DNA from: a virus
Virus record (IMG/VR): IMGVR_UViG_3300027608_000028
Span: 1 to 64,000 of that record
DNA: 64,000 nt
Direction: 5' to 3' (one strand)
The notes beneath the pieces were generated by a model that had not been told where the DNA came from, made no database searches, and saw only the letters and a program-made list of their open reading frames with translations. The translations under genes and the position numbers were made by a program. Shown piece by piece: positions 4,508 through 49,887 of this stretch. Positions within the stretch are counted from its first letter, which is position 1. Each line of letters starts with the position of its first letter.

Positions 4508-4696
4508 ATGCATCCACTAGAACACGAAATACAAGAAATTACAGAGCAATGTCAATTGGGTAATCTAACTGAAGATGAGCGTAATTATTTGTTAACTGAG
4601 ATAAGGGACATTCGTGCGGCCCAACAGTGTGCTGACAATGAAATTACATTTCGATATATTGTACAGGCCTGCAATGTTGCAATGTGCCTTGTTTAA
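4508..4696 (+). CDS. Small helical protein (62 aa), last of the plus-strand cassette
   Basis: Starts MHPLEHEIQEITEQCQLGNL one base after the lipoprotein stop. Predicted helical and acidic with no signal. The 3' end overlaps the convergent gene 4693-5319 by four bases. Not recognised. Confidence 0.55.
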   Translation: MHPLEHEIQEITEQCQLGNLTEDERNYLLTEIRDIRAAQQCADNEITFRYIVQACNVAMCLV

Positions 4697-5319
4697 TTAA
4701 ACTTATATCTATCCCACTCTAGACCAGTTTTATTGTAAACTTTTCCACTGTCAGCAGTTGTTAACCTGTCTATGATATTAAAGATCTGTGTTGCATCTTT
4801 AATTTCTTCTCCGGGAGGAAACCAACTAGGATTGATACAAAAAAATGTATGTGGATAGTGTTCGACAAATCCACGCATGATATGTATGTTTGTGCTTTTA
4901 ACAGCGGCGTATCCTGCATACTTCCACATGTCTTTTTGTTTACCATCTATTAATCCAGTTAACATCCAACCAATTTTTGCATTGTCTGATAATGTTAATA
5001 ACTTAATAGCATAATAAGGTAACTGACAATTAATCCAATAGTCTTGTTGCCACGCTTCTACTGGGAATGTGTGAGTGTTATTATACCATACATCATTTGG
5101 GCCGCCCCCTGCATTTTGATTAAAAAATACTAAGTCGTAGGACTTATGTTGCAACGGTGTTAGCGTATCAGTAAGTGTTTGTAAATTTGAATGTCTCCAA
5201 TCAAATTTAATATTTCCTGTTGAGCTAGATATCACATCTACATCGTGTCCTAGACTTTTAATATACGTTGTAAACACCGATCCCCATTTGGAGCCGCCGC
5301 CGAATATTAGTACGTTCAT
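4693..5319 (-). CDS. SDR-like NAD(P)-binding protein
   Basis: 208 aa. An N-terminal Rossmann start (NVLIFGGGSKWGSVF) and a Y-x3-K pair (YAAVK) near residue 140 match the short-chain dehydrogenase fold and catalytic dyad, though the glycine motif is not canonical and the protein is short. It is coupled by ATGA to the cyclase gene upstream. Similar short SDR-like proteins occur in large phages. Substrate unknown. Confidence 0.6.
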   Translation of the reverse strand: MNVLIFGGGSKWGSVFTTYIKSLGHDVDVISSSTGNIKFDWRHSNLQTLTDTLTPLQHKSYDLVFFNQNAGGGPNDVWYNNTHTFPVEAWQQDYWINCQLPYYAIKLLTLSDNAKIGWMLTGLIDGKQKDMWKYAGYAAVKSTNIHIMRGFVEHYPHTFFCINPSWFPPGEEIKDATQIFNIIDRLTTADSGKVYNKTGLEWDRYKFN

Positions 5320-7403
5320 TTACTAGTTGCCCTGTACACGCCATCCCAATCAGCTGGCAAGGTAGATTGTTTCATTTCCTTACAACGGTCAATCCATAGT
5401 TCATAATAATGATCCATTTGTCCGTTGAACTTACCCATTAGTTCTTTTGTCGAACGTATAGCCGCATCAAATTTTTGCTTACGATATAATTCAAGCATTG
5501 CATTATGTTTTGTTGTATCTTCTTCAGGAATACTTAATTCATTGGCATTGCCTAATAGTGTATAAACGTATACACCTTCTTTTTTGCCTTTAACTGCAAT
5601 ACAATCTAATTCTAAGCAATAGTACTCGTCTTTAATTAATTCTGCTGTACGTTGTCCTAAAACAATCTTGACGCCATACGGCTTAGACTGACCCTCGAGT
5701 CTGCTCGCCAAATTAACACCGTCGCCAAGACAAGTGTAATCAAAACGCTGATCGCTACCCATATTACCCACAACAACGGCGGCACTATTAATGCCAAGAC
5801 CCATACCAAAAGCTGGCACACCTTCTGCCACAACTTGTTTATTAAACTCATCTAAACTCCCCATCATTTCCAATGCTGTCTTTGCGGCCATGTGTGCATG
5901 TCTTGGTTCATCAACTGGTGCGTTCCAAAATGCCATCTGTGCATCACCGATATACTTGTCCAGTGTTCCGTTATTGTCAATGATCTTTTTAGTCATTGCT
6001 GTCATATAACGGTTCATGATTTTAGTAAGGCCTTGTACATCTTTACCATAGTGTTCGCTGATAGTAGTAAATCCTCGAACGTCAGTGAACATAATACTTA
6101 GTTCACGCTCGTCGCCGCCTAGTTGCAATAGCTCTGGATTCTTTTGTAATTTAGCAACTAATGCAGGACTTAGGTATGTGCCAAACTGTTTTGCAATTTG
6201 TTTCTTTAACGCATTTTCTTTGGCAAACTTATTGAATACAATGTAACTCCAAACTATGAATCCGGTTACAACTGGCCAACTATAATCCCATAACTGATGT
6301 AGTTCTGTAAATAGGTAATAACTGCTATAAGAATATAATCCAATAAAAACTACAATAATAGGTACTGTTAGTAACACACTGGCACGTGGCACAAAATAAA
6401 TTATTGCAATACCAATGGCAACAATACATAATAATTCTATAAAAGTAGACCATGCATAACGTTGAATATTATTTTTATCAACAATTGTTTGAATCATCGA
6501 GGCCTGCATATCATGTGACCACGCACTGCCAGTTGGTGTGGCAATAACTCCGCCAACACCTTCTAATGAAACACCCAAGATAACAACTTTATCTTTTACT
6601 CGTTTCTTAAAATCATCAGTTACACTAATTCTGTCAAACTCATAATTCCAGTTCATCCATACACTACCAGTGGGGTCAGTAGTTACTGCTCCATATTGTG
6701 GCACACGCACGGCTTCTATTCCTGCTTCGCTGGCCTTTACTTGATAACTGGGATCACCTGTGCTTACACGTAATGCTTCCATTGTTAAGCTAGGATAGAT
6801 ATTATCTTGGATGCGAACCAGCATTGGCATTCTACGGACAACACCGTCTGGCTCAGGGGCACTGGCAATAACTCCAACCCCGTCTGCATTATTTGCAAGT
6901 ATGTTAATTGGTTTCAATGCGCCAGGCCAAGCATATAAAAACGGAGCAGGATCTTCTCCGACTTTAGCAACTCCCCTACGTTGTGCATCTGGCTTTTTAG
7001 TTTGTGTAGTAACTGTTTGTGCAATTACTACACCATTCTCTTTAATTTTTTTAGCTAATACATCATCGCCCTTAGCCCTATCAGGTTCACTAAACACCGC
7101 TGGTATCACGATAATACCAGCCCCGCCGGCACGTAGTTTATCGATTATATCTGCAATGTCTTTTCTATCCCACGGCCATTGTCCGTATTTAGGCACTGAC
7201 TTTTCGTCAATCTCTACTATTACTACATCGTTACTATGTACTTTTGGTAAAGTAGTTTGGAGGAAGTCCCAACTCTTTAATCGTAGTACTTGTACAGGCC
7301 ATGGGTCATATACTCTTAATGATATTAACCCTAATAGGATCAATATTACGATACCGTTTCCAGTAAAGAAACGTTTCAAAATTTTAATAATTTTTTCAGT
7401 CAT
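5316..7403 (-). CDS. CHASE2-domain class III adenylate cyclase
   Basis: 695 aa. Membrane segment about 16-30, extracytoplasmic CHASE2 sensor about 35-310, three membrane helices about 318-395, cyclase domain about 425-600, helical tail. Catalytic residues are all visible: metal Asp441 (FTDVRGF) and Asp487 (YIGD), adenine-selecting Lys483 and Thr557 (the class IIIb Lys/Thr pair), Asn564 and Arg568. It should convert ATP to cAMP in response to a periplasmic signal. It ends the FecR/curlin/CsgG operon and has its own promoter-like site at 7410-7438. FecR-CHASE2 pairs are familiar from bacterial genomes but unexpected in a phage. Confidence 0.92.
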   Translation of the reverse strand: MTEKIIKILKRFFTGNGIVILILLGLISLRVYDPWPVQVLRLKSWDFLQTTLPKVHSNDVVIVEIDEKSVPKYGQWPWDRKDIADIIDKLRAGGAGIIVIPAVFSEPDRAKGDDVLAKKIKENGVVIAQTVTTQTKKPDAQRRGVAKVGEDPAPFLYAWPGALKPINILANNADGVGVIASAPEPDGVVRRMPMLVRIQDNIYPSLTMEALRVSTGDPSYQVKASEAGIEAVRVPQYGAVTTDPTGSVWMNWNYEFDRISVTDDFKKRVKDKVVILGVSLEGVGGVIATPTGSAWSHDMQASMIQTIVDKNNIQRYAWSTFIELLCIVAIGIAIIYFVPRASVLLTVPIIVVFIGLYSYSSYYLFTELHQLWDYSWPVVTGFIVWSYIVFNKFAKENALKKQIAKQFGTYLSPALVAKLQKNPELLQLGGDERELSIMFTDVRGFTTISEHYGKDVQGLTKIMNRYMTAMTKKIIDNNGTLDKYIGDAQMAFWNAPVDEPRHAHMAAKTALEMMGSLDEFNKQVVAEGVPAFGMGLGINSAAVVVGNMGSDQRFDYTCLGDGVNLASRLEGQSKPYGVKIVLGQRTAELIKDEYYCLELDCIAVKGKKEGVYVYTLLGNANELSIPEEDTTKHNAMLELYRKQKFDAAIRSTKELMGKFNGQMDHYYELWIDRCKEMKQSTLPADWDGVYRATSK

Positions 7404-7409
7404 AGAGTA

Positions 7410-7438
7410 ATTCTAACATAATTGTTTAAAAAAAGCAA
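7410..7438 (-). promoter_or_regulatory. Possible sigma70 promoter of the cyclase gene
   Basis: Minus strand TTGCTT, 17 bases, TAGAAT, ending six bases before the cyclase ATG region. A fair match in the 38-base gap after the curlin-repeat gene. Confidence 0.4.
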
Positions 7439-7441
7439 TCT

Positions 7442-8596
7442 TTAATTTTGTCGAATAATAACTGTTCCACATCCAGCTAGATTGGTACAGGTTTGTAATA
7501 AATTAATGCTAAGTGGATTGGTAGTTGAACTTTGTATTAGATCCAAATTGTTTGGACCTCCAAGTCCTCTAGTCATGTCGATTGTTGCTTTGTTTGGCTG
7601 AGTACCTTCTTGTACTATTACTGCATTATTTTGCGCCCCGTTCATTTTAAGATCTAAATAGTGCTGGCCAGTGCCTTTTTGCACAATGTCAGCAACATTA
7701 CTATTTCCACTAACATCGATGAACATTATTTTATTTCCGTTATCATTTTGCTTGGCTACTATAGAATTTTGGTTACCGTAAATAGAAGTTGACATAAAAT
7801 GGCCGCCCACACCGCCAGTGTTATTCTGCTGTAATGTCATTGAGTTGTTAGTACCCACCATATCTGTTTCTAAATAATGTCCATTTGAACCCTCAGGTGT
7901 ACCATTGACAGTTCTTCCTTGATTTACGTTAATAGTATTAGTATCTCCTAGTGTATTCATTTTAATTTGATTCTGGCCTATACCGATACCTCCTTGATTT
8001 ATATTAGTAGTATTGGTATTTCCTTGCATAGTTAAATTAATTTCTCCATGTCCTTTTTGATCAATTGTAATAACGTTATTGTCACCAATTTGATCTATAT
8101 AAATTAATTTATTAGGCGCCGTGTAATTTTGATGCAATGTTATTTTTGCTTGTTGTCCTTGTGTAATAACACTAGTGCCAGGCCCAGTTGTCATTGACAG
8201 TGAAGAGCCCTGAGAATTTGTTGTAGTTGTGACTGGCGGGCTACTAAAACTATAGTACCTGCCAGAATCTGGCCATGCTATGTTGCCATTGCCGTCGCTG
8301 GTATAAAGATACAAAAAGTCGCCGTTTAGTGTAGCATGGTCTACAATATAAGTTGTTCCTGAACATTCCGGACTTGTACAAGACGCTAGCCAGCCACTTA
8401 AATTATTAATTCCTATTGTGGCTAGTGCATCAAACTCTGCTGGGTTGTTACCTCGGTACACAAATATATAGTCACTACCCTGTCCACTGACATTCATTGC
8501 CGGGCCAATAGTTGTTGCGTCTGCTCTTAATGAAAATAAAACCGCTATTACAAAAATTACTATTGCAATAATATAATCGTTAATATAATCTTTCAT
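7442..8596 (-). CDS. Curlin-repeat secreted protein (CsgA/CsgB-like), long form
   Basis: 384 aa. N-terminal hydrophobic signal segment (about 8-26), a less repetitive domain to about 150, then some ten curlin-type repeats in which I-x-Q-x-G-x-x-N-x-x-x-I-x-Q spacing recurs (for example IYIDQIGDNNVITIDQKG). In CsgA such strands stack into an amyloid beta-solenoid. Lies nine bases after the FecR gene in the csgF-csgG cluster, so it is a likely export substrate. The unusual N-terminal domain could be an adhesion or cap module. Confidence 0.8.
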   Translation of the reverse strand: MKDYINDYIIAIVIFVIAVLFSLRADATTIGPAMNVSGQGSDYIFVYRGNNPAEFDALATIGINNLSGWLASCTSPECSGTTYIVDHATLNGDFLYLYTSDGNGNIAWPDSGRYYSFSSPPVTTTTNSQGSSLSMTTGPGTSVITQGQQAKITLHQNYTAPNKLIYIDQIGDNNVITIDQKGHGEINLTMQGNTNTTNINQGGIGIGQNQIKMNTLGDTNTINVNQGRTVNGTPEGSNGHYLETDMVGTNNSMTLQQNNTGGVGGHFMSTSIYGNQNSIVAKQNDNGNKIMFIDVSGNSNVADIVQKGTGQHYLDLKMNGAQNNAVIVQEGTQPNKATIDMTRGLGGPNNLDLIQSSTTNPLSINLLQTCTNLAGCGTVIIRQN

Positions 8597-8604
8597 AGTA
8601 CTAC

Positions 8605-9723
8605 TTATTTTTGTGTCAACGTAATAATAGTGTTATTCCCAGAGTTAACACGATTCTTAAATTCTAAACTTCCCTGCGTCTGATATATTATCGCACTTTG
8701 TGTTAATGGTATAGTTACACTTTGAATGTCACTGCCGTTATCTCTGTAAAGGGTTAATCCTAGTTCATCTTTAAATACTTGTATGCCGCTACTTCTTTTC
8801 CAATCTGGTAACTGACTATCTACGTCTTTTAGTAAGTCTTCGTTTAAGGCTCCGCCTACCATATCAAATATATTTTCTAAGAACGATGTTGTTGTTAGAT
8901 AATCCTGACTTAGCCTATTACCGAAAAACTCTTTCTGTGAAGCATCTAGCGCATTTTCCAAACCTTTTTCTTTAAGGAAGTCTATATCCAGTGCGCTCTT
9001 AAAGCCTCGGCTTTCTCGGGCGGCGGCTTGTAATTCTTTTGGTGCTGTAAATAACATCATGTTGTTCATTTGATCTTCACTAAAATTTAATATAACTGGT
9101 CTTGTGGGAGCATTCATTCTACTAGATATTCGTGTAGCTTGAAATGCTTTATTTAAAATTACTGTACCCATATCGCTGGTAACTATAATTTCTCCTACTA
9201 CACATTCATATTCAATATCTTTTACAGTCCTTCCCGTTCTTGGCGCTGGACAACTGGGTAGCAATACAACTGTACTTGCTCCTACTTCGTCAACTGTTGT
9301 TGTAAAATCTGTACCCCTAACACCAATAGTAGCTGTGGGTGTAGTTATTGCAACATTTTGCGGATTATTTTTAGCTACCTGGCCTGATGCATATCTTACT
9401 GTACCTAATGCTATCTTAACTGCCAGCTTACCACCCGATTTACTTTTAGGATCATATACAAAATCATCTATTACTAATTTACTGTTTTCAGTTATCTGTA
9501 CCTTAGTGTCATCTTCAAACGTAATACCAACTTTTCCTGATCCTGTTTTAATCGAATCATTCATTTCTATACCGGCTCCTTTGGTTCCTTCTACGGTGGA
9601 CTTTGCTCGCTGAATCTGAGACACGGCGGCAATTTGTTCCGTGACTTTTCCAACAAATGCGCCTGCGTCCAATGATATACTGGCCAATAGTATTATGGCT
9701 CCAAATAGTTTGTGCAATTTCAT
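8605..9723 (-). CDS. FecR-domain periplasmic protein
   Basis: 372 aa with signal peptide (about 1-22). Residues about 40-150 carry the FecR fold signature: a glycine-rich strand around the KTGSGKVGITFEDDT stretch, then TPTATIGVRGTDF. The C-terminal half is not recognised. In bacteria FecR domains bind ligands or sugars in the periplasm and often lie beside CHASE2 cyclases, which suggests the pair works as a sensing unit. Spacing to both flanking curlin-repeat genes is only about 9 bases. Confidence 0.85.
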   Translation of the reverse strand: MKLHKLFGAIILLASISLDAGAFVGKVTEQIAAVSQIQRAKSTVEGTKGAGIEMNDSIKTGSGKVGITFEDDTKVQITENSKLVIDDFVYDPKSKSGGKLAVKIALGTVRYASGQVAKNNPQNVAITTPTATIGVRGTDFTTTVDEVGASTVVLLPSCPAPRTGRTVKDIEYECVVGEIIVTSDMGTVILNKAFQATRISSRMNAPTRPVILNFSEDQMNNMMLFTAPKELQAAARESRGFKSALDIDFLKEKGLENALDASQKEFFGNRLSQDYLTTTSFLENIFDMVGGALNEDLLKDVDSQLPDWKRSSGIQVFKDELGLTLYRDNGSDIQSVTIPLTQSAIIYQTQGSLEFKNRVNSGNNTIITLTQK

Positions 9724-9732
9724 TTGCGTTCT

Positions 9733-10512
9733 TTAATTTCTGCTAGTCAGTGTAGTAACGTTTCCGTTACCAACGCTTTTTAAATTAATAGTAGAATCAA
9801 CAGTTCCAGACTGGTTAATTACCGTAGTATTACTAGATCCGGCAATATCAACTTTAGCATAATGTCCTAAAGTACTGCCACCACTTTGTGTTATTGTAGT
9901 ACTATTGCTGGCTCCTACTGTAACAATATCAACCTGGCCTTTGTCTCCGGTCATATTTAAAATTGTTGCGTTGGCTCCGCCTCCAGTTTGATTAATTGTT
10001 GCTATTACATCACTTGCATTTATATCTGCACTTAATGAATTATTGGCTCCGCCTGCTTGTATTGCGGTTAACGAATTATTAGTTCCTAGCATATTAATTG
10101 TTGCCAGTGAGTCATTACCATCTTGATCTATACTCAATGTTTGACTTGCGGCAAGTCCCAAGCCATCGCCATTAATGTTTATAGTAGCTATAGCATTATT
10201 GCCTTGTACTTTGTAAAATACATTAGTTGCATTGGATCCATTGGCCGTAGTAGTATCTACTCCCATGTTTAATATATTACCAGATCCTATTTGCTGGATA
10301 CTTAAAAGAAGGCCATCGCCTCGAAGTCTGCTGGGCGTTGTATTACCTGTGCCTACGCCCTGTACAGCTCGTACTCTGTTTGAGGCTCCGTCCTGGAGCA
10401 TCGTAATTGTTGCGTTATCTCCTGCTTGGTCAATAAAAATACTGTTGTCTGCCGCTTGTGACGCTTGACTCAGTAATATTAACCCTAACAAAAATATTTG
10501 TTTTGTTGTCAT
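9733..10512 (-). CDS. Curlin-repeat secreted protein (CsgA/CsgB-like), short form
   Basis: 259 aa with a clear signal peptide (MTTKQIFLLGLILLSQASQA). The mature part is almost wholly Gly/Asn/Gln/Thr-rich curlin-type repeats (for example IFIDQAGDNATITMLQDG). It follows csgG by 96 bases, which include a hairpin CACAAAT/ATTTGTG. Likely amyloid subunit or nucleator; which of the two curlin-like proteins is major cannot be told. Confidence 0.8.
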   Translation of the reverse strand: MTTKQIFLLGLILLSQASQAADNSIFIDQAGDNATITMLQDGASNRVRAVQGVGTGNTTPSRLRGDGLLLSIQQIGSGNILNMGVDTTTANGSNATNVFYKVQGNNAIATININGDGLGLAASQTLSIDQDGNDSLATINMLGTNNSLTAIQAGGANNSLSADINASDVIATINQTGGGANATILNMTGDKGQVDIVTVGASNSTTITQSGGSTLGHYAKVDIAGSSNTTVINQSGTVDSTINLKSVGNGNVTTLTSRN

Positions 10513-10608: not shown

Positions 10609-11967
10609 TCATTCCAACAGATCTATGTGTATCCATCCGCCTTTATATTCGCTGTCTGTAACTTTTAGCCAACCGTCAAAGCCCAGTTGTCTAATTGATA
10701 ATGTGGTTCCTTTAACGAACCACAACTTAGTTGCACTCTGTAAATTTGGTTCAGAATAGATGTGTCCTGATTCTTTAAGTTTCATTTTTCGGAATAATGT
10801 TATTCCTGCTAAACTAGTATTAGGTTTAACTCCAGTCGATATATCCACCGCTACGGGTTTGTTTTCTTTCTCGACTGGGGTTTCTTTAATGGGGGTACTT
10901 GCAGGCTCGGTAACTCCTCCAGCTGGCTTTGGTTCTTTGGGCCCGTCAATTTTGCTTCCTGCAGGTGCTTCTCTGCCATTGGACTCGAGTGATATGGGTG
11001 ATGGTGCGGTTTGGGTGCCGGGGGATTCTTCCTTGCCGCTCTTTTGAACCAACTCATTTTTCACCTCTGGAGGCACTACTACAACTGTCTTCGGTGCAGG
11101 TGTTTCCACTACTACGGGTGGTATTATTTTTTCTTCTTTTAGTATCACTGGAGGTGTTACTGATGTTATAGTTTTTCTGTATTCCCATACGCCTTTCCTT
11201 TCGCCTTCTTTAATCAATTCTACTACTGCCATTTCAATAGCTGATTTAACTGCGTATGTGCCAGGCTCATTTATAGTTAAACCTAATTCAGCTTCGAATG
11301 CTTGTGTGCCAGCATCAAAAAATTTCAGTGCTGTAGCGGAATCTGCTGTACTTAAAATAGTTTTTTGTACATTTACTGTCATTAAAACTTTTCCTGTGTT
11401 AACTGATATTGCACGTAAACTGACTGTTACTGTATCTGTGCTCCATTGAGTTTGTCTTCCAATTCCAAATATACGCATACCGGCGCCGCCGCTGGTAGTA
11501 CTAGAGTCATATCCAATGATTCCACCCTCGACTATCATTCCTGCAAATTGTAATGGCATTAACGGTTTAGCATTTGAACCTTCATAGGCTTCGCGCATCT
11601 GTCTAATTATTAAACGTTCCTTAGTAAGGTTATCTACGCCCACACGTTCTACTACTTCAAACCAATTACCAGCGCCAACGTCTTGTAATGCTTTAATTAA
11701 AAATGCTTCGGCGCCCTGTGTAACTGCCGAACTTAAACTGGCCACGTTAGCTTGTGGTCTACGTTGTCCAGTTTTATCTGCAAAACTGTATACTGCCACA
11801 CTTAGCGGTTTCGTACTTGCTGGCAACGGAATATTAGCAAATTCTTTTTTAACTGCTTCGCGTTGCGTAGTTACCGTTGGATCCGATTCTGTAATGCCGG
11901 CAAACTGCGACACCGCGCATCCGTTTAATATCACTAAGGTTGTAATATATAATAATCTTTTTATCAT
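10609..11967 (-). CDS. csgG: CsgG-family outer-membrane curli secretion channel with SH3-like tail
   Basis: 452 aa from the ATG at 11967; 11 upstream in-frame codons are rejected because they displace the lipoprotein signal (LNGC, Cys about 17). Residues about 40-280 match CsgG closely: SVAVYSFADKTGQRRP, the IMVEGSIIGYES-type strand as MIVEGGIIGYDSSTTSGG, RIFGIGRQTQW and SAIEMAVVELIKEG. CsgG is a nonameric lipid-anchored pore exporting curlin. Beyond the usual CsgG length lie a Pro/Lys/Glu linker and a C-terminal SH3-like domain (about 390-452). One base after csgF. Confidence 0.93.
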   Translation of the reverse strand: MIKRLLYITTLVILNGCAVSQFAGITESDPTVTTQREAVKKEFANIPLPASTKPLSVAVYSFADKTGQRRPQANVASLSSAVTQGAEAFLIKALQDVGAGNWFEVVERVGVDNLTKERLIIRQMREAYEGSNAKPLMPLQFAGMIVEGGIIGYDSSTTSGGAGMRIFGIGRQTQWSTDTVTVSLRAISVNTGKVLMTVNVQKTILSTADSATALKFFDAGTQAFEAELGLTINEPGTYAVKSAIEMAVVELIKEGERKGVWEYRKTITSVTPPVILKEEKIIPPVVVETPAPKTVVVVPPEVKNELVQKSGKEESPGTQTAPSPISLESNGREAPAGSKIDGPKEPKPAGGVTEPASTPIKETPVEKENKPVAVDISTGVKPNTSLAGITLFRKMKLKESGHIYSEPNLQSATKLWFVKGTTLSIRQLGFDGWLKVTDSEYKGGWIHIDLLE

Positions 11968-11968
11968 C

Positions 11969-12421
11969 TTAAAACTGGAACTGCCCCAATGGTATGACAA
12001 TCGTTGTCTGATTTCCTACTGTATCTGTTACGACCAATGTTACACTAGTTGTTCCGTCCTTAGTCCAAAAAATAGTATTACCTTCAAAATTTAAAGTACC
12101 ACTAGTAGCGCCACCATCTTTAAACATTGCTGTTGCAAGATTTTGTGATATTTGTGCGTAAATTCTAGATTCTAAATTGTTTAGAAACTTTTGTAGATTG
12201 GTATTCTTTTTGTCTGCCGCGGCCTTTTCTATTGCGGCTTGTATAGCATCACGGACAGACTTCTGACGAGTAAATTCTTGATTTTCTATCGTTAATACGT
12301 GACTACTGTAGCCAATGCCATTAAATGCAGGGCTTTTAAAGGAAAAATCCGATATCGGTGCGGCCACTAAGTTTAGTGGCATAGCTATTGCGATTAAAAA
12401 GTATTTTTGTAGTTTTGTCAT
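11969..12421 (-). CDS. csgF: CsgF-family curli assembly factor
   Basis: 150 aa with signal peptide (about 1-20) and a mature N-terminus SDFSFKSPAFNGIG. This matches the CsgF N-terminus (F-x-F-x-N/S-P-x-F-x-G), the part that binds inside the CsgG pore. The C-terminal strand TIVIPLGQFQF fits the family end. Gene order csgF-csgG with one base between them supports the call. Ribosome site is weak. Confidence 0.88.
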   Translation of the reverse strand: MTKLQKYFLIAIAMPLNLVAAPISDFSFKSPAFNGIGYSSHVLTIENQEFTRQKSVRDAIQAAIEKAAADKKNTNLQKFLNNLESRIYAQISQNLATAMFKDGGATSGTLNFEGNTIFWTKDGTTSVTLVVTDTVGNQTTIVIPLGQFQF

Positions 12422-12501
12422 ATTTCATGTTATAAGCCACAATCAGAGCTCTAATGTATTTACAGTAAATCTGGCTAGAGTTAAAGTGTATGTTATCAGT
12501 C

Positions 12502-12530
12502 AAAAAAATACCCGTATAAAACGGGTATTT
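12502..12530 (-). terminator. Terminator after tRNA-Ile2
   Basis: Minus-strand stem AATACCCGT/ACGGGTATT followed by T7, directly 3' of the tRNA at 12536-12610. It insulates csgF from the genes upstream, so the curli-like operon needs its own promoter at about 12422-12500. Confidence 0.8.
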
Positions 12531-48483: not shown

Positions 48484-49374
48484 TTATCTTGCAAGACATT
48501 GTCTATAGTTACGTTTTTCCGGGTCTAAATGTAAAGGGTTACAGTCTCTCCAACTAGGTTCCATATTTTCTGCTTGGTCTTTATCTTGGGCCCACGCAGT
48601 TTCCCATACTTGTTCATTGACTGCCCAATTTTCTTCTGGGTAATTAAAATCTCTGTATTTAAAAATATGACTAATTGTTTCTGTGTCTGACTTTGGTTCA
48701 TTAATCATTACAAAAACTGCACCAGGTTGCCATTCAAACATTGTTCCTGGATATTGTGCTAGCCATACTGCATTGTACGCTAATCCTTTACCTTTAATAA
48801 ATTTAGTAAAATCTGTTTCTTCAGTCATTGACCCGACGACATATTGTGCGCTTCCACCATCCCACCGCTTCCATGTTATTTCTTCTACATTAGGTACATT
48901 AATTTTAGCATATACTCCGGGGTGAACTAACGGTATATGATCTATGTCTAAAAATAAATCCATAATTGGAACATAATTAGATTTAATTACGTCTTGTCGA
49001 TATTCTACTAATTTATAGTCGCCGACGATATTTCTATCCAATGGTACAGGATCTGTGAATAAGAACCCACTCCATTCAAATACAGGCTCTGTTGTTAAAG
49101 GATGATTATTTTTGCAAGGCATGGATCCTGTACTGTGTCCCACAGTGCCGCTACCTTTTGGTGTTCCATTCTTATCCCAACTCCAGCCATGGTATGGACA
49201 AACTGCATGTAGGTTTGTTCCTGCACCTTTTCGTATACGACTACCTTGATGCGTACAAATATTGCTTTGTAATGTAAAGTTACCTTCAACATTTAGCAAT
49301 GTTTTTTTAGACTGAAATTGTTCTAGAACTTTCCAACTTCCCTGAGGGATATCATTGATGTGTGCTAAAAACAT
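48484..49374 (-). CDS. Rieske-type mononuclear iron oxygenase
   Basis: 296 aa. Rieske ligands C-x-H...C-x2-H in CTHQGS and CPYHGWSWD (about 37-60). The catalytic iron site is D-x2-H-x4-H in DIDHIPLVHPG (about 150-160), as in ring-hydroxylating and related oxygenases. It needs a reductase, not seen nearby. Start codon is six bases from a TATAAATA box. Confidence 0.9.
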   Translation of the reverse strand: MFLAHINDIPQGSWKVLEQFQSKKTLLNVEGNFTLQSNICTHQGSRIRKGAGTNLHAVCPYHGWSWDKNGTPKGSGTVGHSTGSMPCKNNHPLTTEPVFEWSGFLFTDPVPLDRNIVGDYKLVEYRQDVIKSNYVPIMDLFLDIDHIPLVHPGVYAKINVPNVEEITWKRWDGGSAQYVVGSMTEETDFTKFIKGKGLAYNAVWLAQYPGTMFEWQPGAVFVMINEPKSDTETISHIFKYRDFNYPEENWAVNEQVWETAWAQDKDQAENMEPSWRDCNPLHLDPEKRNYRQCLAR

Positions 49375-49380
49375 ATAGTA

Positions 49381-49388
49381 TATTTATA
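49381..49388 (-). promoter_or_regulatory. T4-late-like TATAAATA box before the Rieske gene
   Basis: Exact TATAAATA on the minus strand between the tmRNA terminator and the Rieske ATG, six bases before the start codon. Confidence 0.55.
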
Positions 49389-49393
49389 TATAA

Positions 49394-49415
49394 GAAACCC
49401 GCCGAAGCGGGTTTC
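49394..49415 (-). terminator. Terminator of the tmRNA gene
   Basis: Perfect 9-bp stem GAAACCCGC/GCGGGTTTC with CGAA-type loop at the end of the tmRNA coding piece. Confidence 0.85.
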
Positions 49416-49587
49416 TGGTGGTTTCTGTTACGAGGCATTTCCTGCCCTAAGTGGCTGTTAGGCCGCTAATGCGAACTGTGAGTCGTTTGCGGTTACTTTT
49501 GTTTAGTTTTTACGACTATCGCTGTCGTGCTGTCCACTCTGTTACTTGTTGCCCTGTCGAATCTAGGTCAGGCCCATCAAAAGAAAA

Positions 49588-49695
49588 TTACACATCTTTT
49601 TTGTGATGCGGTTTGATATTGAGACCGTATAGATAACTAACACCGCACACTGACAACACTATCATCACTGCGACAAATACTATTACCTCGATCAT
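49588..49695 (-). CDS. Membrane microprotein ORF inside the tmRNA intervening segment (35 aa)
   Basis: ATG with AAAGGA eight bases upstream. MIEVIVFVAVMIVLSVCGVS is a membrane helix, followed by a basic tail KPHHKKDV. It fills the segment between the two tmRNA halves (49576-49707), starting 12 bases after the CCA end. Could be a real gene using the spacer or a chance ORF; the ribosome site favours real. Confidence 0.5.
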   Translation of the reverse strand: MIEVIVFVAVMIVLSVCGVSYLYGLNIKPHHKKDV

Positions 49696-49794
49696 TTAAT
49701 TTCCTTTTGGTGGACCTGGGGGGATTCGCACCCCCGTCCAGAACACTTTTCTCTTTGCTTCATACAGCAATAACTCTTACTACATATCATACGG

Positions 49795-49887
49795 AAGAAG
49801 GTAGGGGATTCGGACCCCTGGGAGGTGTTGTTAAGAACCTTCGCTAGTTTCGGAAACTAGTACTTTAAGCCACTCAGTCAACCTTCC
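49795..49887 (-). tRNA. Class II tRNA with apparent CCG anticodon, possibly degenerate
   Basis: Long variable arm and serine-type D arm, acceptor GGAAGGT/ACCTTCT. Anticodon stem CTAGT/ACTAG encloses TTCCGAA, so U33 is followed by CCG, an arginine anticodon on a serine-type body. The T-loop is TCCGAAT (C at 55), position 73 is T and no CCA is encoded (CCG follows). It resembles tRNA-Ser(TGA) of the array. Either a decayed or a recoding tRNA. Lies directly before the tmRNA 3' half. Confidence 0.65.

Follow-up and report, generated by a model that had tools for sequence, protein, structure and literature searches.

Why would a lytic phage encode both amyloid fibers and an enzyme that makes cyclic AMP (cAMP)? 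This puzzle is posed by a module that is widespread in aquatic phages, and the published ideas about its use (sibling capture, a block to superinfection, the timing of lysis, or an uptake pore) rest on csgGF and the fiber genes and leave the cyclase unexplained. The question is addressed here with positions 1 to 64,000 of the IMG/VR virus record IMGVR_UViG_3300027608_000028 (the window, 64,000 bases of a 70,305-base record that is itself a fragment), in which genes for a FecR-domain protein, a curlin-repeat protein and a predicted adenylate cyclase with a CHASE2 sensor domain lie between positions 5316 and 9723. It was found that these three genes are the 3′ half of one csgF-csgG-curlin-FecR-curlin-cyclase run, and we tentatively favor a reading in which FecR would be a periplasmic, fiber-linked subunit whose state is read by CHASE2, with host cAMP changed accordingly. 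The FecR-RTX adhesins that lie beside sister cyclases, together with a curlin-like tail on the phage FecR, provide a testable role for two unexplained genes, and the same link suggests a function for bacterial FecR-CHASE2 pairs as well.

As deduced from the coordinates of open reading frames (ORFs), the six genes form a minus-strand run that reads, 5′ to 3′, csgF, csgG, curlin-repeat gene 1, FecR, curlin-repeat gene 2 and cyclase, and this order on one strand is that of the published phage module that joins a type VIII secretion system (T8SS) to FecR and an adenylate cyclase (PMC9599517). The products of the run, with the E values of their Pfam matches, are as follows.

11969..12421, minus strand: csgF, the first gene of the module (150 aa; CsgF, 5.9e-12).
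10609..12000, minus strand: csgG, encoding the outer-membrane pore lipoprotein (463 aa; CsgG, 8.8e-47).
9733..10512, minus strand: curlin-repeat protein 1 (Curlin_rpt, E=0.0024 in 3 stretches, below the Pfam cut-off).
8605..9723, minus strand: FecR-domain periplasmic protein (372 aa; FecR, 7.7e-11).
7442..8596, minus strand: curlin-repeat protein 2 (384 aa; Curlin_rpt, E=0.041, below the cut-off; matches the curlin profiles of relatives).
5316..7403, minus strand: CHASE2 plus class III nucleotidyl cyclase, a predicted adenylate cyclase (695 aa).

The FecR gene that a preliminary description of this DNA had placed near the cyclase is therefore present on the same strand, and both curlin genes sit where the cultured phages Melnitz and HTVC008M have annotated curlin genes. 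The same description had called a phage membrane adenylate cyclase very unusual, a view that did not survive a scan for relatives: the enzyme is encoded at no fewer than 591 IMG/VR loci, is annotated in HTVC008M and Melnitz, and belongs to a FecR and cyclase curli module that was published in 2022 and is common in aquatic phages (PMC9599517). Eighty loci were kept for analysis per scan, and the order csgF-csgG-curlin-FecR-(curlin)-cyclase was present in nearly all of those with enough upstream DNA. Searches with CsgG and FecR, made to avoid anchoring on the cyclase, recovered it in 49/49 and 55/56 loci, respectively, that had enough downstream DNA, a near-obligate co-occurrence in surveys that favor relatives of their seeds; modules without FecR or the cyclase are on record (PMC9599517). 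Several relatives (L236, L272, L288, L326 and L327) encode the cyclase beyond the module on the other strand, which means that it is retained also where it is not co-transcribed.

Two curlin-repeat genes occur in almost every module, so fiber subunits are present. This observation bears on an extension of a proposal made for Melnitz (PMC9004378), according to which the CsgGF pore was repurposed for timed lysis, with the cyclase and FecR setting the timing. A published structural argument speaks for this explanation, as does the fact that no CsgE gene was recognized in the module, but the lysis paper had reported curlins to be missing, and we consider timed lysis unlikely.

The architecture of the cyclase is that of a membrane-bound sensor enzyme, with CHASE2 (PF05226, 1.4e-42) at residues 23-334 and Guanylate_cyc (PF00211, 3.6e-20) at residues 434-616. 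Hydropathy and AlphaFold place helices at 16-32, 319-340, 343-368 and 375-407, that is, a predicted transmembrane helix before CHASE2 and predicted membrane helices after it, and the AlphaFold2 model (mean predicted local distance difference test score (pLDDT) of 90) consists of an N-terminal helix, CHASE2, three helices and the catalytic fold. CHASE2 is thus predicted to be periplasmic between transmembrane helices and the output domain cytoplasmic, with sidedness taken as an assumption, which agrees with the periplasmic sensor domain proposed earlier. The further claim that all catalytic residues are present also holds, since six of six are intact: D441 and D487 (metal), K483 and T557 (base selection), N564 and R568. 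Across the 84 cyclase ORFs of a first survey, one of which duplicates that of the window, D441, K483, D487 and R568 are invariant, while T557 is found in 82 and N564 in 83. The Lys at position 483 is as in Pseudomonas aeruginosa CyaB, and not the Glu of the guanylyl cyclase Cya2, so ATP is predicted, and strongly suggested, to be the substrate; a Thr at 557 instead of Asp is consistent with class IIIb. Among solved catalytic domains, the nearest are those of CyaB (Foldseek match, 2.7e-16), Cya2, CyaC and photo-regulated cyclases, and catalysis by the window enzyme is likely.

Two groups of relatives depart from the window's residue set, DKDTNR. The Melnitz type (L002, L090, L096 and L109) carries Asp at 557 and Ser at 564 (DKDDSR), and the HTVC008M type (L003, L095, L098 and L100) has Ser for T557 (DKDSNR) and no C-terminal tail. 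The cyclase of Melnitz itself, at L002:11932-13983, has lost the catalytic Asn (N564S). As judged from these substitutions, the two types may differ in activity, with the Melnitz type possibly inactive or altered. Such losses are the basis for supposing that the operon carries the cyclase as a relic without function. Against this, the median ratio of nonsynonymous to synonymous substitution rates (dN/dS) is 0.085 for the whole cyclase, 0.094 for CHASE2 and 0.048 for the catalytic domain (141 pairs, 80-98.5% identity), and the metal and Arg residues are invariant in the window's lineage. These ratios indicate that the cyclase is under strong purifying selection, as a maintained enzyme rather than a relic in the window's lineage, and the relic explanation is extremely unlikely.

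The only hydrophobic segment of the window's FecR protein is a signal peptide at residues 6-24, and the cytoplasmic and membrane portions found in FecR-type sigma regulators are therefore missing. The FecR domain (residues 57-153) is followed by a helical middle and a beta-rich C-terminus with a final curlin-type strand, NTIITLTQK. The model of the phage FecR (pLDDT 83) matches FecR-family structures, including the PupR signaling domain (3.2e-4), and aligns locally with Protein Data Bank (PDB) entry 5ix9 (64 columns, 1.2 Å root-mean-square deviation, 28% identity, TMt 0.74). The Pfam name, the match to the periplasmic signaling domain of PupR and a proposal in the literature (PMC9599517) would favor a FecR that acts as a sigma-factor regulator on iron or curli genes, with cAMP acting by a CsgD-like route. 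However, the protein has neither a cytoplasmic anti-sigma part nor an internal transmembrane helix, and sigma region 2 (PF04542) had no match in the window's record (a 70 kb fragment) or the L004 contig, with the matches in other phages lying far from the module. With no anti-sigma part and no adjacent extracytoplasmic function (ECF) sigma factor, a sigma-regulator role was rejected as very unlikely.

A different feature of FecR hints at a link to the fiber. In 60/60 FecR proteins of the first survey, the last 15 residues include a strand that fits [VILYF]x[VIL]xQ, compared to a background of 2.9% of windows, and none of the controls has it (cyclase, 0/84; CsgG, 0/53). Of the 105 distinct sequences in a second FecR set, 89 carry such a strand, and a broader pattern raises the count to 101, against a background of 5.5%. 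By sequence, the pattern is that of curlin repeats, and the C-terminus carries one or two curlin-like strands, without a match to Pfam Curlin_rpt. A LapG-type cleavage motif was absent from 58/60 phage FecR proteins, and in the other two the copies lie in the signal-peptide region. What is new here is that the phage FecR has no anti-sigma part, resembles the anchoring domains of FecR-family proteins and RTX adhesins, and nearly always ends in a curlin-like strand.

In the reading that we tentatively favor, a phage-borne type VIII export module would carry its own signaling arm. CsgG and CsgF would form the outer-membrane pore and the curlin-repeat proteins the fiber, while FecR would be exported to the periplasm, where its FecR-type domain would serve as an anchor or plug and the curlin-like strands at its C-terminus would engage curlin subunits or the growing fiber. 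CHASE2 of the inner-membrane cyclase would sense loaded versus unloaded FecR and switch the homodimeric class III adenylate cyclase, such that host cAMP would follow fiber export. We infer the contacts of FecR with CHASE2 and with curlin, the direction of the response and the receptor for cAMP in the host. The preliminary description had the phage reading the envelope state and changing host cAMP; the role for host cAMP is plausible, but the envelope state is too broad, because the gene neighbors in phages and bacteria point to a secreted surface fiber or adhesin as the thing that would be monitored.

Several observations weigh against this reading. A cyclic nucleotide-binding domain was found in 0/16 phage records, so a phage-encoded cAMP receptor was set aside and the cAMP effector must come from the host. 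The authors of the Melnitz study saw no cell clumping (PMC9004378), and Melnitz-type phages still keep the module with a cyclase that lacks T557 and N564. In addition, the only PDB sequence match of the phage FecR profile, 5ix9, is weak (E=0.21), and hhalign comparisons of the FecR C-terminus with curlins of the same phages gave probabilities of 60% and 48%, each from a single comparison and only suggestive (controls: CsgG 0.6, CsgF 6.1, cyclase 0.2), while a HMMER profile of this C-terminus had no significant match among the curlin ORFs.

A possible, though not probable, alternative is that FecR is a structural part of the fiber (an anchor or nucleator, like CsgB), that the cyclase responds to a separate cue in the periplasm (osmotic, redox or a small molecule), and that the two share a module only since both serve curli production. 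The curlin-like tail alone would account for the FecR gene, the opposite-strand cyclases fit this explanation, and CHASE2 is divergent among phages (38-53% identity to the window in most) compared to the catalytic domain (73-89%), as varied cues predict. Bacterial genomes provide the evidence on the other side: FecR genes adjoin CHASE2 cyclases there at loci where no curli module was seen, which is hard to explain unless the pair works together. Specifically, within the order of Microvirga, the one bacterial order in which adjacency was tested, a FecR gene (Pfam) lies within 6 kb at 34 or more of 84 CHASE2-cyclase loci from 72 genomes, where chance would give ~1% per locus. Beside the cyclases closest to the phage clade (L156, L158, L160, L162, L164 and L093), the FecR domain belongs to a very large exported protein that also has cadherin/Ig, VWA or RTX domains, and genes for a type I secretion ATPase and HlyD lie near many FecR-RTX/cyclase loci. 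A retention domain at the N-terminus, located in the periplasm, keeps RTX adhesins on the cell surface (PMC12077191, PMC13090378), and the bacterial FecR-RTX protein of L160 matches 5ix9 by sequence (4.7e-6).

Phylogenetic analysis relates these bacterial enzymes to those of phages. A tree of 57 rows joins the phage cyclases, those of full-module contigs from metagenome-assembled genomes (MAGs) among them, in one group (Shimodaira-Hasegawa-like approximate likelihood ratio test (SH-aLRT) support of 100) beside the Hyphomicrobiales CHASE2 cyclases, and the set of both is supported at 98. An alphaproteobacterial origin had already been concluded (PMC9599517); what is added here is that the phage cyclases make up a single clade whose sisters are the CHASE2 cyclases of Hyphomicrobiales, and that several of these bacterial enzymes are encoded beside genes for FecR-domain RTX adhesins and type I secretion. 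Full-module contigs from bacterial MAGs (L090, L095, L096, L098, L100, L104 and L109) were considered as bacterial donors and rejected, as the cyclases tested fall inside the phage clade. These are probably phage contigs, because of this grouping and because both contigs of the L098 genome with module-type FecR genes also carry gp23; this is not established for the L095 and L084 genomes, for which gp23 was not found.

These relationships invite a broader, and doubtful, proposal that FecR and a CHASE2 cyclase constitute a general export-and-anchoring checkpoint. A checkpoint is the simplest way to read the bacterial and the phage setting alike. The FecR domain would be the periplasmic end of an exported surface polymer, namely an RTX adhesin that leaves by type I secretion in bacteria or a curlin fiber that leaves via CsgG in phages, and the cyclase would report its state as cAMP; phages would have acquired this device from an alphaproteobacterial lineage and given FecR a new tail of curlin strands, so that cAMP in an infected cell would be made in step with fiber export. 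Among the papers covered by a literature search, none joins a FecR domain, an adenylate cyclase, an adhesin and cAMP.

The cyclase has also been reshaped among phages. The CHASE2 domain of the window cyclase shares 71% identity with that of L004 and only 46-49% with those of L045, L036 and related loci. For the catalytic domain the order is reversed, with 86-89% identity to the L045/L036 group and 62% to L004. The domain trees agree with a mosaic, the catalytic tree being without starred support. These identities point to a further new finding, that the window cyclase is a mosaic of two phage lineages with its break at the domain boundary, so an exchange of sensor and output domains between phages is suggested.

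Is the cyclase expressed apart from the curli genes? A promoter-like site just before the cyclase gene, and with it a separate timing, had been proposed. Sigma-70-like sites were not above chance (31 found, 31.3 expected from shuffles), none of the listed promoter-like sites is on the minus strand in the 38-nt gap before the cyclase, and the T4 late-promoter octamer TATAAATA showed no enrichment and was absent from the module. A TTGCTT-17-TAGAAT site with an extended -10, seen by eye and ending 6 nt before the cyclase ATG, is a weak candidate that lies too near the ATG to convince. On these grounds a separate cyclase promoter was rejected. In most relatives the FecR, curlin and cyclase genes directly adjoin or overlap one another, often by 4 nt, and this, like the lack of promoter enrichment, fails to bear out separate timing. 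Transcripts of the module have been reported in ocean metatranscriptomes (PMC9599517).

Other features of the window and its relatives are the following.

4693..5319, minus strand: a 208-aa protein with an N-terminal GGGSKWG motif, overlapping the cyclase stop by 4 nt.
12501..12530, minus strand: an intrinsic-terminator-like hairpin with a T-run, recognized by direct reading of the sequence and not returned by the terminator scan.
49367-49887: a permuted tmRNA (tag ANDSQFALAA), followed by tRNA-Arg.
L193:7183-7482, L195:6461-6847, L283:4433-4756 and L288:4221-4574: examples of a cyclase-tail mini-gene, present at ~20 further loci.

The 208-aa ORF is translationally coupled to the cyclase, yet lies outside the module in relatives; it had no counterpart in the other surveyed loci and no Pfam or PHROG match. 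The hairpin, between tRNA-Met (12610-12536) and csgF, shows where the module begins. The listed TTG start of csgG at 12000 overlaps csgF, and an internal ATG yields a lipobox, LNGC. CsgG of the window is long compared to the relatives measured (258-395 aa, mostly 258-324), with an extra C-terminus of ~190 residues that is Pro-rich and has an SH3-like stretch at its end, and a separate set of relatives (for example, L181-L184) matches it along its full length. The second curlin gene of L045 (2676-4589) encodes 637 aa, in which the curlin repeats follow an F5/8 type C domain (of the carbohydrate-binding type). Between its second curlin gene and the cyclase, L004 encodes a 690-aa Ser/Thr-rich, secreted-looking protein (5840-7912), and 2.7-4.4 kb are inserted at this place in L036, L043, L045, L046, L050 and L051.

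The product of the mini-gene (~100-130 aa) shares homology with the cyclase C-terminus over its final ~110 residues (profile positions 574-682, up to 65 bits), and the gene has not been described previously. It is found at 24 of the 144 loci with csgF and 1.5 kb upstream, mostly 8-109 nt and sometimes 0.7-1.4 kb upstream of csgF, and is not in the window. It matched no Pfam or PHROG family and no gene of cultured phages, and the idea of a common cyanophage gene was dropped on this account; it is possibly a cyclase regulator or a split-off fragment of the enzyme.

The phage origin given in the preliminary description is supported by 47 ORFs that the record shares, in largely kept order (BLASTP, 1e-8), with a 134.8-kb IMG/VR viral contig, G207 (locus L004), which carries a gp23-type capsid gene; this also rules out bacterial contamination as the source. 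No gp23 match was found in the window's own record. The ribonucleotide reductase genes of the window match phage families, and the window carries 21 tRNA genes in addition to the permuted tmRNA, whose additional match to a betaproteobacterial tmRNA family is only a weak hint about the host. A tRNA-Sec family match at 864-948 (49.6 bits, cut-off 47), inside a cluster of ~19 tRNA genes at 185-2413, may be an odd ordinary tRNA.

Comparison with known systems places the window module among its closest counterparts. The pelagiphage T8SS modules (PMC9599517; HTVC008M gp014-gp019 and Melnitz gp99-gp104) have the same gene order, and their cyclases are 42-45% identical to that of the window over 84-95% of its length. 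The window phage belongs to another lineage, with L004 as its nearest contig (63% cyclase identity), and differs from HTVC008M and Melnitz in its full DKDTNR set, its long extra CsgG C-terminus and the lack of a visible histidine kinase gene before csgF, where the window has tRNA-Met and a 145-aa ORF without a Pfam match. The podophage version of the published module has a histidine kinase at this place, while the myophage version need not.

A similar arrangement is known from Sinorhizobium meliloti, in which the CHASE2 cyclases CyaD1, CyaD2 and CyaK respond via NsrA, an outer-membrane barrel, and drive Clr (PMC13001267), and the FecR-domain protein SMc02177 is a Clr target (PMC5498481). As a precedent for what is proposed for the module, this pathway pairs CHASE2 class III cyclases with an outer-membrane beta-barrel protein and raises cAMP, and CyaK is ~31% identical to the window cyclase. 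It differs in responding to plant signals and in using a bacterium-encoded receptor, Clr, and SMc02177 is not needed for signal perception.

The Hyphomicrobiales cyclases (for example, L160, L156, L158 and L162) resemble those of phages in combining CHASE2 with a class III domain in ~740 aa, mostly with a W(D/N)G...K end, and their loci also have a FecR-domain exported protein upstream and, near many of them, a dedicated secretion system. The 5ix9 structure is the N-terminal anchoring/retention domain of an RTX adhesin from Marinomonas primoryensis, whereas the phage FecR is small and without adhesin repeats. In Hyphomicrobiales the partner is an RTX adhesin of 0.9-1.8 thousand residues exported by type I secretion, whereas in phages it is a curlin fiber exported via CsgG.

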